Assembly: GCF_039522665.1 (NCBI RefSeq) | Contig: NZ_BAAADV010000004.1 | Location: forward strand, 1 to 64,000 | DNA: 64,000 nucleotides | Origin: Natronoarchaeum mannanilyticum | GTDB taxonomy: Archaea; Halobacteriota; Halobacteria; Halobacteriales; Natronoarchaeaceae | Direction of reading: 5' to 3' | Shown here: in pieces, positions 18,161-34,679 of the stretch | Position numbering within the stretch: position 1 is the first letter of the stretch | How the letters are laid out: each line of letters opens with the position of its first letter | The notes under the pieces: model-generated | Databases searched by the model: none | What the model saw: the letters and a program-made list of their open reading frames with translations, nothing else | Told to the model about the DNA's origin: nothing | Translations under genes and position numbers: made by a program

Positions 18161-19786
18161 TCAGCGCTCGTCGACCGGCACGGCGACCAGCGCCATGTCG
18201 TCGTCCGGAACGACCTCCGAGAGCGTTCGATCGATCGCCGACCAGGAGTCGGGGCGGTACGCGTCGACGTCGAAGCTGTCCGCGAACGTGGCGAAATCCG
18301 GGTTCGTGAACTGGGTCCCGTAGTCACCGCCGCCGTGGGCGTGTTGCTGGCGGGCGATCGAGCCGAACTCGCGGTTCTCGAACACCAGCACCGTGAAGCC
18401 GCAATCGAGCCGTCGGGCGGTCTCCAGGTCCGATGCGTTCATCATGAACCCGCCGTCGCCGGTCGCGGCGACGACGTTCGCGTCGCTGGCGAGGTCCGCC
18501 GCGATCGCGCCCGGGAGGGCGATCCCCATCGTCGCTAGGCCGTTCGAGATCACGCAGGTGTTGGGATCGTACGTCGGGAACCGGCGCGCGAGCACGCCCT
18601 TGTGGTGGCCGACGTCCGAGACGAGCACGTCCTCGTCGGCCATCGCGTCGCGGAGCAGCGGGACGAGCCGCTCGACGGTGAGCGGCGCGTCGTCGGCCGG
18701 ATGCTCGGTCGCGGCCGCGTGGACCTCCTCGCGGATCTCGGTCCACCACTCGTCGTCGAAGTCCAGATCGGCGTCGCTGGCCAGCCGGTCCAGCGCGGCG
18801 TCGATGTCGCCGACGACCTCCACGTCGGGGTTGTAGTGTCGCGAGACGTCGGCCGACGCGGTGTCGACGTGGACGATCGAGCGATCCAGATCGGGGTTCC
18901 AGTCGACCGGCTCGTGCTCGGCGACGTCGTAGCCCGCCGCGACGACGCAGTCCGCCCGCTCGACGGCGGCGTACTGCTCGTCGACGCCGGAGGCGAGCGT
19001 GTACAGCGAGCGCTCGTCGGCGTCCGACACCGCGCCCTTGCCCATGTACGTCGCGGCGACGGGGATCCCGGTGTCGTCGACGAACGACCGAAGCGCGGGC
19101 GCGGCTCGCGTCCGGAGGACGCCGTTGCCGGCCAGCACGAGCGGTCGCTCGGCGGCTTCGAGCAACTCGGCGGCGGCGTCGATCGTCTCCTCGTCGGGAG
19201 CCGGCAGCGAGACGGGTTCGCGCCGGGCGAGCGGTTCGTCGTCGACCGTCTCGCCGGCCACGTCGTAGGGAAGTTCGAGGTGGGTCGGACCCGGCTTCTC
19301 GCGCTCGGCGCACCGGAATGCCTTGCGAACCGCCTCGGCGGCGAACGCGGCGTCGTCGATCTGGGCGTTCCACTTCGTGACGCTGTCGAACAGCGACACG
19401 ACGTCTATTGCCTGGTGGCTCTCGCGCTGGATGCGCTCGCGGCGGCCCTGCCCGGTGATCGCCACGAGCGGGCTCTTGTCGAGGTAGGCGTCCGCGACGC
19501 CGGTCAGCAGGTTCGTCGCGCCGGGACCGAGCGTTCCCAGGCAGACCCCGGCGTCCCCGGTCAATCGACCGTACACGTCCGCGATGAACGCGGCCGCCTG
19601 CTCGTGGCGCACCGGGACGAACTCGATGTCTGAGTCGCCGAGCGCGAACAGCAGCTCGGTCGTCTCCTCGCCGGGAATGCCGAACACGTGCTCGACGTCC
19701 TCGGCTTCGAGGCAGTCGACGATCAGGCGGGCGGTGGTGTCCTCGCTCGCGGCGGCGTCATCCGTGGCGGTGGCGTCGTCGCTCAT
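18161..19786 (-). CDS. thiamine-pyrophosphate enzyme, acetolactate synthase-like
   Basis: 541-residue TPP-dependent enzyme of the acetolactate synthase/pyruvate oxidase family. It has the catalytic Glu in VRHEQAAAFIADVYGRLTG, the TPP-binding GDGGFMMNASDLETARR and a central FAD/nucleotide-like domain. It is distinct from the ilvB of this window: no small subunit follows, and its stop-to-start gap to the upstream aldehyde dehydrogenase is 3 nt, so the pair form one operon. A catabolic 2-oxoacid decarboxylase or ligase feeding or using an aldehyde is plausible; acetolactate synthesis is not certain. Confidence 0.82.
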   Translation of the reverse strand: MSDDATATDDAAASEDTTARLIVDCLEAEDVEHVFGIPGEETTELLFALGDSDIEFVPVRHEQAAAFIADVYGRLTGDAGVCLGTLGPGATNLLTGVADAYLDKSPLVAITGQGRRERIQRESHQAIDVVSLFDSVTKWNAQIDDAAFAAEAVRKAFRCAEREKPGPTHLELPYDVAGETVDDEPLARREPVSLPAPDEETIDAAAELLEAAERPLVLAGNGVLRTRAAPALRSFVDDTGIPVAATYMGKGAVSDADERSLYTLASGVDEQYAAVERADCVVAAGYDVAEHEPVDWNPDLDRSIVHVDTASADVSRHYNPDVEVVGDIDAALDRLASDADLDFDDEWWTEIREEVHAAATEHPADDAPLTVERLVPLLRDAMADEDVLVSDVGHHKGVLARRFPTYDPNTCVISNGLATMGIALPGAIAADLASDANVVAATGDGGFMMNASDLETARRLDCGFTVLVFENREFGSIARQQHAHGGGDYGTQFTNPDFATFADSFDVDAYRPDSWSAIDRTLSEVVPDDDMALVAVPVDER

Positions 19787-29138: not shown

Positions 29139-30369
29139 ATGTCCGACGACACGTCCATGGATTCGTCCTCTGGCACCAGCCAGGGGGGTCGAGTTCTTCC
29201 AGGGCACGTTAGATTCCACTGACGAGATAAAGTCAGCACGCGTTTTCGACACGACGCTCCGCGACGGGGAGCAATCGCCACACACGTCGTTCTCCTACGA
29301 GGACAAGCGGGAGATAGCGGCTGTGCTGGACGAGATGGGCACCCACGTCATCGAGGCGGGGTTCCCGGTCAACTCCGACGCGGAGTTCGAGGCGGTGCGT
29401 GACATCGCCGAGAACACGAGCACGACCACCTGCGGGCTCGCCCGCGTGGTCGACAAGGACGTCGAGGCCGCGATCGACAGCGGCGTCGAGATGGTCCACG
29501 TGTTCTCCTCGACGAGCGACGTCCAGATCGAGGATTCGATGCACGCCACCCGCGAGGAGGTAGTAGAGCGTTCGGTCGAGGCCGTCGAGCGAGTCAAGGA
29601 GGCAGGCGTGACCTGCATGTACTCGCCGATGGACGCGACCCGCACCGACGAGGACTTCCTGATCGACGTGATCGAGGCGGTCTCCGACGCGGGGACCGAC
29701 TGGATCAACATCCCCGACACCTGCGGGGTCGCGACGCCCCGCCGGTTCTACGACCTGATCAGCACGGTCGTCGACCACACGGACGCCAACGTCGACGTCC
29801 ACACCCACGACGACTTCGGGCTGGCGACCGCCAACGCGCTGTCCGGTATCGAGGCCGGGGCCAAGCAGGCCCAGGTCTCGGTCAACTCCATCGGCGAGCG
29901 CGCGGGCAACGCCGCCTACGAGGAGTTCGTGATGGCCGTCGAGTCGGTGTACCAGGTCGACACCGGCATCGACACGACCCGCATCACCGAGCTCTCGCGG
30001 CTCGTCGAGGAGCTGAGCGGCATCGACGTGCCGGGCAACAAGCCCGTCGTCGGCGAGAACGCCTTCTCCCACGAGAGCGGCATCCACGCCGCGGGCGTGA
30101 TCGAGAACTCCGACACCTTCGAGCCGGGCGTCATGACGCCCGACATGGTCGGCGCGAACCGGAAGCTGGTGCTGGGCAAGCACACCGGCAACCACTCCGT
30201 CCGCGAGCGACTGGAGGACGCCGGCTTCGAGCCGACCGAGGAGGAGGTCCGCGCGGTCACCCGCCGCGTCAAGGACCACGGCGCCGAGAAAAAGCAGGTC
30301 ACGATGGAGACGCTGGAGCAGTTCGCCCGCGAGGAGGGCGTCACGCGCACGGAGGAGGTCACGGTCTGA
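29139..30369 (+). CDS. leuA: 2-isopropylmalate synthase, with apparent frameshift near the N-terminus
   Basis: Condenses acetyl-CoA with 2-oxoisovalerate, the committed step to leucine. The HMGL-like TIM barrel begins VFDTTLRDGEQSPHTSFSY and contains GTHVIEAGFPVNSD, DVHTHDDFGLATANAL and SVNSIGERAGNAA; HESGIHAAGV follows. Homology extends upstream to RGVEFFQGTL, but that frame has no start codon. ATG 29139, correctly placed after a TATA box, reads MSDDTSMDSSSGTSQGG and then leaves frame at a run of six G (29183-29188); one more G would join the two into an intact protein of about 410 residues. As written, either a sequencing error or a real mutation. Uninterrupted frame without start: 29134-30369. 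Confidence 0.85.
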
Positions 30370-30535
30370 TGCCCCCCGCCGGGTTCGTCGTTTCCCACTC
30401 TCGGGAGCGACAGGTAGAGCGCGACGACTCCGGACGCCGCGGCGACAGTCGCGCCGGCGCCGGACTCGCTCTCGCCGGCTGCCGCGCACGCGTAGTGGTG
30501 CGTGCGTCTCGGCGGCGCCCCCCGACGCGCAACAA

Positions 30536-30541
30536 TTATAA
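30536..30541 (+). promoter_or_regulatory. TATA box of the ilvB leader transcript
   Basis: TTATAA within CAATTATAAG is centred 26 nt before the leader ATG 30565, the leaderless distance. No comparable TATA element lies immediately before ilvB, so the ilv operon transcript probably starts here. Confidence 0.6.
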
Positions 30542-30564
30542 GCGACGAACGCATCATCACTGCA

Positions 30565-30666
30565 ATGATGAGACGGACCCCCGCCGCCGAGGTCACGAGC
30601 CCGGTCAGCGGCGGGTCCGCGGCGACCCTTCTCGCGACGCTCGGTGTGATCGTAGGGGCCCACTAG
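30565..30666 (+). CDS. candidate leader peptide of the ilv operon
   Basis: 33-residue ORF (MMRRTPAAEVTSP at its start) placed 26 nt after a TATA box and about 190 nt upstream of ilvB. Its end, ATLLATLGVIVGAH, holds three Leu, two Val and one Ile codon within 11 codons, the amino acids made by the downstream operon. The stop codon TAG (30664-30666) lies inside a short inverted repeat AGGGGC/GCCCCT (30654-30671). This is the layout of a bacterial-style attenuation leader. Translation has not been shown. Confidence 0.5.
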   Translation: MMRRTPAAEVTSPVSGGSAATLLATLGVIVGAH

Positions 30667-30671
30667 CCCCT
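30654..30671 (+). promoter_or_regulatory. hairpin at the leader peptide stop codon
   Basis: AGGGGC-CCACTA-GCCCCT forms a 6-bp stem with a 6-nt loop; the leader stop codon occupies the end of the loop and the first base of the 3' arm. A ribosome stalled on the preceding Leu/Val/Ile codons would change whether this stem forms. No alternative T-tract terminator is evident downstream. Confidence 0.4.
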
Positions 30672-30853
30672 CACACATCCACTTCTCGACCACGGATCGC
30701 ACCGTCTTCAGAACGTCCAGCACCCGCTCGACATATGTACCGACAACCACACACCCGACGACAACACCGACCCGCGACCGAACAGCCTCGACGAACACCG
30801 GCAGCTCGAACTACAGCATCCGCGGCACGGACCGAAGCGTCCGGTGAGAGCGC

Positions 30854-32671
30854 ATGAGCGAACGCGCGCCGGTCACCGAGACCGAAAAGGAGGCGACCGA
30901 CGCCGGCGACGCCGCGGACGCCGCGGCGTCCGGCGCCAACCGATCGCCCGAGGAACGGGCCGAAGGACGGCCCGTCGAGACGGGCGCCCAGTCGGTCGTC
31001 CGCGCGCTGGAGAACGCCGGCATCGAGTACCTGTTCGGCGTCCAGGGCGGGGCGATCATGCCCGTCTACGACGCGCTGTACGACTCCGACCAGCTCACCC
31101 ACTTCACGATGGCCCACGAGCAGGGGGCGTCCCACGCCGCCGACGCCTACGGCATCGTCGCGGGCGAGCCGGGCGTCTGCATGGCGACCTCCGGTCCGGG
31201 CGCGACGAACCTCGTGACCGGCATCGCAGACGCCAACATGGACTCGGACCCGATGATCGCGCTGACCGGGCAGGTCGCCCGCGACTTCGTCGGTAACGAC
31301 GCGTTCCAGGAGACCGACACCACGGGCGTCACCGACCCGATCACGAAGACGAACTTCTTCGCCGACGATCCCGACGTCGTCGGCGACGACGTCGGGCAGG
31401 CGCTGGCCCTGTCGAACACCGGCCGCCCCGGCCCGACGCTGGTCGACCTGCCCAAGGACGTCACGAAGGCCGACACCGACGTCGAGCCCGGCGAGCCCGA
31501 GACCCCGGACACGTTCCACGCGCCCGAGGAGGCCGACGACGAGGCCGTCGCCGAGGCGGTCCGGGCGATCGAGGCCTCGGAGAAGCCCGTCATCCTGGCG
31601 GGCGGCGGCATCATCAAGGGCGACGCCACTGAGGAGCTGCGGGAGTTCGCGACAACCTACGAGATCCCGGTCGTCACGACGATGCCCGGCCTGGGCTCGT
31701 TCCCCGAGGACCACGAGCTCTCGATGGAGATGGCCGGCATGCACGGCACCGGCTTCGCCAACATGGCGATCACGCACTGTGACGTGCTGATCGGCATCGG
31801 CACCCGGTTCGACGACCGGCTGACCGGCGGCATCGACACGTTCGCGCCCGACGCCGAGGTCGTCCACGTCGACATCGACCCCGCCGAGATCAGCAAGAAC
31901 ATCCACGCGGACTACCCGCTGATCGGCGACGCGGGGACGGTCATCGAGCAGCTCGACGCCGAGATGGACTTTGCGCCCGACGCCGACGAGTGGCGCGAGC
32001 AGTGCCAGACCTGGAAAGACGAGTACCCGATGGACTACTCGACGCCCGACGACGAACCCCTGAAACCGGAGTTCGTCGTCGAGGCGCTTGACGAGGCAAC
32101 CGGCGGCGACGCCATCGTCACGACCGGCGTCGGCCAGCACCAGATGTGGGCCTGCCAGTACTGGACCTACACCGAGCCCCGAACCTGGGTTTCCTCGCAC
32201 GGCCTGGGGACGATGGGCTACGGGCTGCCCGCGGCCATCGGCGCCCGCGTCGCGGCCGACGACGACCAGGAGGTCGTCTGCTTCGAGGGCGACGGCTCCT
32301 TCCTGATGACGATCCAGGAGCTGTCCGTCGCGGTCCGCGAGGACATGGACATCACCGTGGCCGTGCTCAACAACGAGTACGTCGGGATGGTCCGCCAGTG
32401 GCAGGACGCCTTCTTCGACGGCCGTCACGCCGCCTCGGAGTACTCCTGGTGTCCGGAGTTCGACAAGCTCGCGGAAGCGTTCGGCGCCCGCGGGTTCGCG
32501 GTCGACGACTACGACGAGGTCGCCGACGCCGTCGAGGCCGCCGTCGAGTACGACGGCCCCTCGGTGATCGACTTCCACATCGACCCCCGCGCCAACGTCT
32601 ACCCGATGGTCCCCAGCGGCGGGGCCAACGGCCAGTTCGCACTGAGCGAAGAACAGCTGGAGGACCTGTAA
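30854..32671 (+). CDS. ilvB: acetolactate synthase large subunit
   Basis: TPP- and FAD-dependent enzyme joining two pyruvates to acetolactate (valine, leucine) or pyruvate with 2-oxobutyrate (isoleucine); 605 residues. Catalytic Glu in MAHEQGASHAADAYG; TPP/Mg site in FEGDGSFLMTIQELSVA; FAD-region GIGTRFDDRLTG; NNEYVGMVRQWQ as in biosynthetic AHAS. An acidic, Ala-rich extension of about 40 residues precedes the conserved part. It is first in ilvB-ilvN-ilvC-orf-leuC-leuD, 2 nt before ilvN, and is preceded by the leader peptide. Confidence 0.95.
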   Translation: MSERAPVTETEKEATDAGDAADAAASGANRSPEERAEGRPVETGAQSVVRALENAGIEYLFGVQGGAIMPVYDALYDSDQLTHFTMAHEQGASHAADAYGIVAGEPGVCMATSGPGATNLVTGIADANMDSDPMIALTGQVARDFVGNDAFQETDTTGVTDPITKTNFFADDPDVVGDDVGQALALSNTGRPGPTLVDLPKDVTKADTDVEPGEPETPDTFHAPEEADDEAVAEAVRAIEASEKPVILAGGGIIKGDATEELREFATTYEIPVVTTMPGLGSFPEDHELSMEMAGMHGTGFANMAITHCDVLIGIGTRFDDRLTGGIDTFAPDAEVVHVDIDPAEISKNIHADYPLIGDAGTVIEQLDAEMDFAPDADEWREQCQTWKDEYPMDYSTPDDEPLKPEFVVEALDEATGGDAIVTTGVGQHQMWACQYWTYTEPRTWVSSHGLGTMGYGLPAAIGARVAADDDQEVVCFEGDGSFLMTIQELSVAVREDMDITVAVLNNEYVGMVRQWQDAFFDGRHAASEYSWCPEFDKLAEAFGARGFAVDDYDEVADAVEAAVEYDGPSVIDFHIDPRANVYPMVPSGGANGQFALSEEQLEDL

Positions 32672-33367: not shown

Positions 33368-34414
33368 ATGGCAGACGAATTCACGACAACGGTATATCGA
33401 GACGAGGACGCGGACAGTTCGTACATCGAATCGGAGACGGTCGCGGTGCTGGGCTACGGCAGCCAGGGCCACGCGCACGCGCTCAACCTGCACGAGAGCG
33501 GCGTCGACGTGATCGTCGGCCTGCGGGAGAACTCCTCCTCGTGGGACGAGGCCGAAGACGCCGGCCTGCGCGTCGAGACGCCCGACGTCGCCGCCGCCGA
33601 GGCCGACGTGGTCAAGATGCTGGTGCCCGACACCGTCCAGCCCGCCGTCTACGAGGCCATCGAGGACGGCCTCGACGCCGGCGACACGCTGCAGTTCGCC
33701 CACGGCTTTAACATCCACTACGGGCAGATCCGGCCGCCCGAGGACGTCGACGTGACGATGGTCGCGCCCAAATCGCCGGGCCACCTCGTGCGCCGAACGT
33801 ACGAGCGCGGCGAGGGCGTCCCCGGCCTGATCGCGGTGTACCAGGACGCCACCGGCGACGCCAAGGAGCGCTCGCTGGCCTACGCGCAGGCGATCGGCTG
33901 CACCCGCGCGGGCGTCGTCGAGACGACGTTTCAGGAGGAAGTCGAGACCGACCTGTTCGGCGAGCAGGCCGTCCTCTGTGGCGGCGTCACCGAGCTGATG
34001 AAGATGGGCTACGAGACGCTCGTCGACGCGGGCTACAGCCCGGAGATGGCGTACTTCGAGTGCATGAACGAGATGAAGCTCATCGTCGACCTCATCTACG
34101 AGGGCGGGCTGATGGGCATGTGGAACTCCGTCTCCGACACCGCCGAGTACGGCGGCCTCACCCGCGGCGAGTACGTCGTCGACGAGGAGTACGCCCGCGA
34201 GGGCATGGAGCAGGTGCTCGACGAGGTCCAGGACGGCGAGTTCGCCCGCGAGTGGATCTCGGAGAACCAGACCAACCGGCCCAGCTACAAGCAGCTGCGC
34301 GCGGCCGAGGAAGACCACGAGATCGAGGACGTCGGCGGCCGCCTGCGCGACCTGTTCGCCTGGGAGGCCCAGGAGGACGCCGACGAGAAAGAGCAAGTGC
34401 AAGCAGATGACTGA
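33368..34414 (+). CDS. ilvC: ketol-acid reductoisomerase
   Basis: NADPH- and Mg-dependent isomeroreductase turning acetolactate into 2,3-dihydroxy-isovalerate; 348 residues, short class I form. The Rossmann motif [13 protein letters not shown] is at about residues 26-38, [20 protein letters not shown] follows, and the C-terminal domain has [20 protein letters not shown] with the catalytic acids. AACGTATACG about 30 nt upstream may give a secondary internal promoter in the 73-nt gap after ilvN. Its stop overlaps the next start (ATGACTGA). Confidence 0.95.
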
Positions 34415-34679
34415 CACCATGAAAGACGTCGACCACACCCATCCTCACGGCGACTCCGGCGCCGCCCGGTCGTTCCGGCGCGGCCCCGCCGTCGCCGCCG
34501 ATGGTAGCGGTCGACCCGCGGACAGAGAGAACGAACAGGCGACCGAAAGCGACGACGACTCGATGGCCGACGTGGACCACCAGCCCCCGGCGGGCGACGG
34601 TGCGAACCCCGCGTTCGAGCGCGGGAAGAAGCCGCAGGCCGAAAGAGTCGCGGACGACGTATCAGAGGACGAAGAATGA
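34407..34679 (+). CDS. small ilvC-leuC linker protein with internal duplication
   Basis: 90-residue acidic protein of unknown function translated between ilvC and leuC; both junctions overlap (8 nt with ilvC, 4 nt with leuC), so it is firmly part of the operon. It contains the same segment twice: [20 protein letters not shown] (residues 7-26) and [19 protein letters not shown] (55-73), each with conserved His, Pro and an RG end, joined by a disordered acidic linker. As I recall, Haloferax has a gene at this position too. A partner-binding role for pathway enzymes is speculation. Confidence 0.7.

Follow-up and report, generated by a model that had tools for sequence, protein, structure and literature searches.

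We found that a short open reading frame, ORF1, is conserved ahead of the acetolactate synthase gene ilvB nearly throughout the class Halobacteria, far beyond the DNA in which it was first noticed. Comparison of the sequences strongly supports the anatomy of a sensor: a leader ORF, a cluster of Leu, Ile, and Val codons, and a hairpin that bears the stop codon. On balance, the element is probably a cis-acting leader that monitors the supply of branched-chain amino acids through the ribosome and controls ilvB, ilvN, and ilvC along with leuC, leuD, and leuB.

A short ORF and a stop-bearing hairpin lie between leuA and ilvB

The window is the whole 64,000-nucleotide stretch of Natronoarchaeum mannanilyticum DNA that was analyzed. 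In it, a leuA-type synthase gene, ilvB, ilvN, ilvC, a 90-amino-acid ORF, leuC, leuD, and leuB all run in one direction, with gene names taken from Pfam and NCBIfam matches. The features in and around the leuA-ilvB gap are as follows.

29323..30369, plus strand: leuA-type 2-isopropylmalate/citramalate synthase gene (PF00682 and PF22617; the true start lies further upstream)
30369..30857, plus strand: orfX; its ATG overlaps the leuA stop codon (TGATG) and its TGA overlaps the ilvB start codon (ATGA)
30536..30541, plus strand: TATA element TTATAA of a putative internal promoter, 32 nt ahead of the ORF1 ATG at 30568
30568..30666, plus strand: ORF1, leader peptide MRRTPAAEVTSPVSGGSAATLLATLGVIVGAH, probably leaderless; another in-frame ATG at 30565
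30649..30657, plus strand: ORF1 core codons Ile-Val-Gly (ATC GTA GGG), conserved in 140 loci
30654..30671, plus strand: 6-bp hairpin AGGGGC-CCACUA-GCCCCU, with the ORF1 TAG (30664-30666) between GGGG and CCCC
30672..30687, plus strand: C/U-rich tract, nearly G-free, 3' of the hairpin (from base composition in 140 loci)
30735..30857, plus strand: ORF2, which begins at a conserved ATG within orfX, 68 nt past the ORF1 stop, and comprises the C-terminal portion of orfX
30843..30847, plus strand: SD-like GGTGA ahead of ilvB (from sequence)
30854..32671, plus strand: ilvB, acetolactate synthase large subunit (TIGR00118, 690 bits; cutoff, 538)

The initial annotation, made from the window sequence alone, had described a TATA box, a 33-codon ORF with three Leu, two Val, and one Ile codons among its last 14, a 6-bp hairpin containing its stop codon, and an ilvB start about 190 nt later. 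We confirmed the hairpin and found the composition to be correct. Read from 30565, ORF1 has 33 codons (30565-30666, MMRRTPAAEVTSPVSGGSAATLLATLGVIVGAH, stop codon TAG at 30664-30666) and ends in the 14 residues ATLLATLGVIVGAH; the ilvB ATG lies 187 nt beyond this stop codon. The second ATG, at 30568, is the likelier ORF1 start because the TATA element of relatives sits 32 nt ahead of the start. The initial annotation overlooked that the entire leuA-ilvB gap is one ORF, orfX, with an internal start at 30735. The promoter, ORF1, and the hairpin are all inside orfX, and ORF1 is read in a different frame.

Three further observations concern the window. Between 29140 and 29190, the ATG near 29140 of the leuA-type gene, which follows a TATA element, and the conserved-domain frame disagree across a six-G run near 29184-29189, and GTG 29323 is therefore where the listed ORF begins. 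The likeliest explanation is a slip of one base in sequencing or assembly. The 90-amino-acid ORF (34407-34679) overlaps both of its neighbors, ilvC and leuC, had no match in Pfam or NCBIfam, and is perhaps another bridging or small-protein ORF. On the minus strand, 18161-19744 encodes a TPP enzyme that distantly resembles IlvB (34% identity); the matched stretch contains one in-frame TGA.

ORF1 is conserved ahead of ilvB across the class

We retrieved 80 loci from named genomes by IlvB similarity alone. After L079, which came without upstream DNA, was dropped and the window was added, this unbiased set held 80 loci. ORF1 was found in all 80, ending in Ile-Val-Gly-Ala or Ile-Val-Gly-Val (in some loci with a few extra residues) shortly before ilvB, whereas its N-terminal two thirds vary freely. 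GTAGGGG followed by CCCC is likewise present in 80/80. The initial annotation had asked for such an alignment and had named a lack of conservation as grounds for giving up the idea; that objection clearly fails.

A wider set was built with the pattern ATH-GTAGGGG-N2..12-CCCC. We found this leader end in 328 of 341 sampled Halobacteria genomes and 75 of 81 genera, mostly as one copy per genome, and the reversed pattern, used as a control, was much rarer. From these we took 60 hand-picked and 10 automatic stretches (70 loci, two places of which are duplicated). An IlvB match adjoined the pattern in 64; the six loci without one are the two duplicated places (L084/L097 and L085/L099) together with L123 and L156. 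We set the ilvB starts with a script. Once four loci in which this gave no ilvB start were dropped, the combined set comprised 140 loci, the 80 unbiased ones and 60 that came from a pattern already containing the Ile-Val-Gly core. The loci share descent, so the counts given here are of nonindependent events, which a subset of 56 low-similarity representatives offsets only in part.

The sole other pattern match in the window genome lacks an in-frame stop codon inside its hairpin loop region, between GGGG and CCCC. Outside the class, matches among 148 genomes of the phylum were chance-like, and the two retrieved (L157 and L158) had no ilvB nearby. A second leader that is not before ilvB occurs near position 1500 in both L084 and L085, from two genomes of one genus: an ORF1 ending in LIVGV and a stop-bearing hairpin are followed by an ORF of about 45 to 51 amino acids. 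This ORF has relatives in 23 of 59 class genomes and, in L084, is followed by a T-rich run.

A promoter-like element marks the ORF1 start

A TATA-like element at -36 to -24 precedes 133 of the 140 ORF1 starts, a count inflated by the partial use of TATA in choosing those starts. It was found at 1 of 140 ilvB starts, 0 of 113 ORF2 starts, and 15 of 1737 other ATGs. An SD-like motif precedes 108 of 140 ilvB starts versus 7 of 113 ORF2 starts. Among relatives, the element is conserved at about -32 from the ORF1 start, and because of this spacing, the ORF1 mRNA is probably leaderless. Applied to 30 trpC loci (L163 to L192), the same rule located the gene start in 27, which served as a positive control for the fixed TATA-to-start distance of leaderless transcripts. 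The trpC mRNA is probably leaderless as well, and we found no leader ORF in these 30 loci. This rules out a leader as a general trait of amino acid operons in the class. A TATA element at ORF1 and hardly ever at ilvB or ORF2, together with a probably leaderless trpC mRNA that has no leader peptide, favors supply sensing.

Leu, Ile, and Val codons cluster at the end of ORF1

We found that Leu, Ile, and Val make up 589 of 980 residues (60%) in the seven codons ending with the core Val versus 332 of 2343 (14%) in the codons before them, across the 140 loci. The codon bias that the initial annotation had looked for in related genomes is therefore there. We also counted codons -8 to -2, with the two core codons excluded. 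Leu, Ile, and Val account for 382/980 in the ORF1 frame, 224/980 in the +1 frame, and 53/980 in the -1 frame, and Ile occurs 111 times versus 7 times in earlier codons. Both comparisons support sensing of amino acid supply by a ribosome on ORF1.

The core itself is invariant, with Ile, GTA, and GGG each in 140/140; the Ile codon is ATT in 114, ATC in 25, and ATA in 1, under a pattern requiring ATH for 60 of the loci. The stop codon (TAG, TAA, or TGA) always lies 9, 12, or 24 nt from the start of the Val codon. The RNA stem, and not Val or Gly, may be what keeps GTA and GGG constant, which counts against supply sensing. Substitutions in the ORF1 body show no codon-phase bias (0.158, 0.152, and 0.157 at the three positions; 177 nonindependent pairs), and the N-terminal part is therefore not conserved as a protein, as judged from this comparison. 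A body of this kind fits a leader yet proves no translation. A chance origin of ORF1 is ruled out by its conservation in 80/80 ilvB-anchored loci and by the TATA, frame, and stop codon controls.

The 13 genomes without the pattern all have IlvB homologs, and the ilvB 5' region is in view in 12 (in G187, only the later part of ilvB was matched). Nine of the 12 have a variant leader, and three have none. The residue ahead of the core Val is Val in L193, L194, and L201 and Leu in L200, in place of Ile; this exchange among end-product amino acids again favors supply sensing. Two loci carry the covariation for which the initial annotation had hoped: the outermost G-C pair of the GGGG/CCCC stem is C-G in L195, and the fourth is C-G in L196, each a two-sided compensatory change. 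The stem is rebuilt in L197 and L198, with Arg directly before the Val codon, and kept in a shifted register in L199. L202, L203, and L204 represent two deep-branching families; they lack this leader before ilvB, and their upstream gene closely adjoins ilvB. The promoter, leader, and bridge may therefore be later insertions into the leuA-ilvB junction.

The near-identical last residues, together with the fixed distance of 9, 12, or 24 nt from GTA to the stop, could also indicate an arrest peptide, in which the ribosome is held up at or close to the stop codon by a nascent chain ending in Ile-Val-Gly-Ala, perhaps with a small molecule as cosensor, and then remodels the RNA. We consider this unlikely. 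The GGGG stem accounts for the Gly and the Ala or Val, and where the stem is rebuilt, the peptide ends in V-R-A (L195, L197, and L198) or V-G-P-A (L196). The enrichment in Leu, Ile, and Val also extends several codons upstream.

orfX spans the gap from leuA to ilvB

Where leuA is in view (88 loci), the orfX frame has a start codon at the leuA stop in every case (ATG in 83, GTG or TTG in 5). This codon is 2 to 7 nt from the first base of that stop in 86 loci; in L052 and L088, it precedes that base by one. The frame of leuA itself varies (38, 37, and 13 loci). At the other end, the first orfX-frame stop past the hairpin is exactly the ATGA or GTGA of the ilvB start in 117 of 140 loci. The orfX frame is frame -1 of ORF1. 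It contains no stop in 2903 triplets of ORF1 bodies, 1960 triplets of the 45 nt upstream, or 2240 triplets of the 55 nt that directly follow the ORF1 stop; the other frames, the ORF1 frame itself excepted, have 21 to 102 stops over those regions.

The in-frame internal ATG of ORF2 is present in 113 of 131 loci examined (70 of 75 in the first set), and ATGs in this region number 126, 14, and 3 in the three frames. With three exceptions among the 113 loci, the ORF2 ATG lies 53 to 92 nt past the ORF1 stop. The ORF2 region of these loci (30735-30857 in the window) is very T poor, at 7.9%, and the spacer before ilvB folds less than shuffled sequence (mean z of +0.88; mononucleotide shuffles, 40 loci).

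Searches of Pfam and NCBIfam gave no family match for orfX, and its substitutions show no codon-phase bias. It is therefore likelier to be a translational bridge than a conserved protein. In overlapping gene pairs of Haloferax volcanii, TGATG and ATGA overlaps give coupled translation in the parts of the reports considered here (PMC10666635 and PMC6728339). The same two overlaps stand at the ends of orfX in the window, and a stop/start overlap or near touch was found at both ends in most loci; coupling at orfX would follow by analogy. The H. volcanii pairs described there are ordinary genes, whereas the orfX protein sequence is poorly conserved and the ORF has inside it a promoter-like element and a leader ORF read in a different frame. 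According to the portion of PMC10666635 used here, reinitiation in H. volcanii works across overlaps and is abolished at about 22 nt. This limit would fit a bridge built of overlaps. Because the gap from the ORF1 stop to ORF2 is mostly 53 to 92 nt, reinitiation at ORF2 is disfavored as the main route.

Could orfX be the functional feature, as a bridge or small protein from leuA to ilvB, and ORF1 incidental or minor? Its start at the leuA stop whatever the leuA frame, its openness until the ilvB start, and its surplus of internal ATGs all speak for it. We nevertheless find this distinctly unlikely. The core Ile codon has another third base in 26/140 loci, a change that is silent in ORF1 and alters the orfX residue, and the enrichment in Leu, Ile, and Val follows the ORF1 frame and not the orfX frame; the missing codon-phase bias and family match also count against it. 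An orfX bridge and an ORF1 leader can both be true.

The hairpin usually encloses the stop codon and is rarely followed by oligo-T

The GGGG and CCCC arms are present in 140/140 loci with 5 to 9 nt between them, and the ORF1 stop lies between the arms in 131; the other nine have the same hairpin with the stop after it. That the stop stays in place while the spacing varies favors supply sensing. The next inner pair is standard (C-G, U-G, or U-A) in 129/140 versus at most 126 in shuffles, and many loci extend the stem through GUA/UAC. In dinucleotide shuffles, the hairpin has a mean z of -3.30, with 55 of 56 divergent representatives below -1; the ORF1 body has a z of -1.74 (35/56 below -1), controls of the same length have -0.47 and -0.38, and the spacer has +0.13. 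Together with the two-sided changes in L195 and L196, this supports the hairpin as a working part of the leader.

After the hairpin, G makes up 1 to 8% at 14 of the 16 positions from +5 to +20 of the CCCC start (18% at +11 and 14% at +18; 140 loci). Runs of five or more T's at +5 to +40 occur in only 1/140 loci, and runs of four or more in 23/140 (shuffle mean, 10). No competitor of either hairpin arm did better than shuffled sequence (10 to 17 of 56 lower). The missing oligo-T and competing stem count against a terminator/antiterminator switch of the bacterial type. We also rejected base pairing between the C/U tract and the ilvB SD, which was no better than shuffled (17/40 lower).

Gapless consensus folding of equal-length ORF1 bodies yielded nothing at 72, 66, or 69 nt and weak stems at 63 and 60 nt; only the 90-nt set, with 6 sequences, fell below the column-shuffled minimum. 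In clade alignments, two-sided pair changes numbered four in Haloarculaceae, one in Halobacteriaceae, and none in three other groups, and a helix with several such changes in the ORF1 body was seen only in Haloarculaceae.

With the hairpin and TATTGTAGGGG conserved at the nucleotide level, a protein-binding hairpin or ligand-sensing RNA might control ilvB and leave ORF1 as a by-product. This seems quite improbable to us, as the TATA-to-ATG spacing, the varied in-frame stops between the arms, the enrichment in Leu, Ile, and Val, and the exchange of Ile for Val or Leu all track a reading frame; Rfam covariance models gave no match up to E = 1 in window positions 29900-31400.

It is very improbable that a ribosome starved for Ile or Val at the ORF1 end slips -1 into the orfX frame and is carried to ilvB. 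The orfX frame is open everywhere beneath the ORF1 end, and the ORF1/orfX frame relation is conserved in 104 of 113 loci, which first prompted the idea of a programmed -1 frameshift; that idea was demoted once the orfX start at the leuA stop was seen. No classical slippery heptamer was seen at the ORF1 end, and the TAG in GTAGGGG, which blocks the third frame, also explains the fixed relation. That the GGGGC-GCCCC palindrome, an inverted repeat near a promoter-like element, is a DNA operator to which a transcription factor binds 3' of the start site is barely credible, as half-sites spaced 5 to 9 nt apart would be unusual for a dimer and an in-frame stop stays between them.

A model for supply sensing by the ribosome

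The final Leu, Ile, and Val codons of ORF1 abut and enter the 5' arm of the GC hairpin that encloses its stop. As the TATA spacing suggests, an internal promoter in the leuA-ilvB gap would yield an mRNA starting at or near the ORF1 ATG, and a ribosome would load at its 5' end and translate ORF1. With ample Leu, Ile, and Val, the ribosome would finish and leave, the hairpin would form ahead of the C/U tract, and downstream expression would drop. In short supply, the ribosome would wait on the Ile and Val codons and cover the 5' arm, the hairpin would not form, and downstream expression would go up. A ribosome of general footprint size, waiting with an Ile or Val codon in the A site, would cover the GGGG arm. 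As output, transcription could end within or beyond the C/U tract, perhaps through an archaeal termination factor, or else translation could be blocked. By analogy with other H. volcanii pairs, the stop/start overlaps of orfX may let leuA read-through transcripts feed ribosomes to ilvB.

The initial annotation had suggested archaeal attenuation. A conserved leader ORF rich in Leu, Ile, and Val codons set against a conserved hairpin bears this out in part; a terminator/antiterminator switch is doubtful, since neither an oligo-T terminator nor an antiterminator was found. Supply sensing itself has to contend with these two gaps (runs of five or more T's in only 1/140 loci and no competing stem for either arm) and with the Arg just before the Val codon in L197 and L198.

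In bacteria, the control of amino acid genes by leader peptides is textbook knowledge. In Escherichia coli, the ilvBN leader (IvbL) and the ilvGMEDA leader have runs of Val/Leu or Ile/Val/Leu codons before the operon, with classical alternative pairings and a rho-independent terminator. The haloarchaeal leader shares the end-product codons in a leader peptide before an ilv operon and differs from these bacterial leaders in the pairings and terminator.

A closer likeness is to the actinobacterial ilvB leaders of Corynebacterium, Mycobacterium, and Streptomyces, a short ORF before ilvB whose Ile, Val, and Leu codons overlap a hairpin, as presented in the sections of PMC1262725 considered here. 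Those leaders continue into a poly-U candidate terminator (PMC1262725, same sections), whereas the haloarchaeal leader continues into a G-free C/U tract without T5 runs, is archaeal, lies on a probably leaderless mRNA, and is nested in a second ORF. Substitution of the candidate regulatory codons in the Streptomyces coelicolor ilvB leader had no effect according to that part of the report (PMC1262725); this speaks against supply sensing and, by analogy, is a warning for the haloarchaeal leader. The uORF of Corynebacterium ilvB-II resembles it in being present once per genome about 150 nt before ilvB, with lengths that are multiples of three and enrichment in Leu, Ile, and Val. It is bacterial, with a terminator/antiterminator model and a U-run, and no bridging ORF is described in the part of PMC10272879 considered here.

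Like bacterial ilv/leu attenuators, the haloarchaeal leader has a short upstream ORF (80/80) with end-product codons clustered near its end. A run of five or more T's follows the hairpin in only 1/140 loci and the switch itself is conjectural; for these reasons, we do not file the leader as a member of that group, although by analogy it would work like the actinobacterial and Corynebacterium ilvB leaders. No haloarchaeal leader-peptide attenuator is reported in the titles and abstracts that we found in the open-license PMC literature.

If our reading is true, archaea use ribosome progress to control genes with no terminator of the bacterial type, on an mRNA that is probably leaderless. As a bridge, orfX would also put stop/start overlaps to a new use. 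An H. volcanii ilvB1 insertion mutant is described in the portion of PMC4300041 considered here. A class-wide device with compensatory stem changes and end-product codons would be readily testable in H. volcanii.
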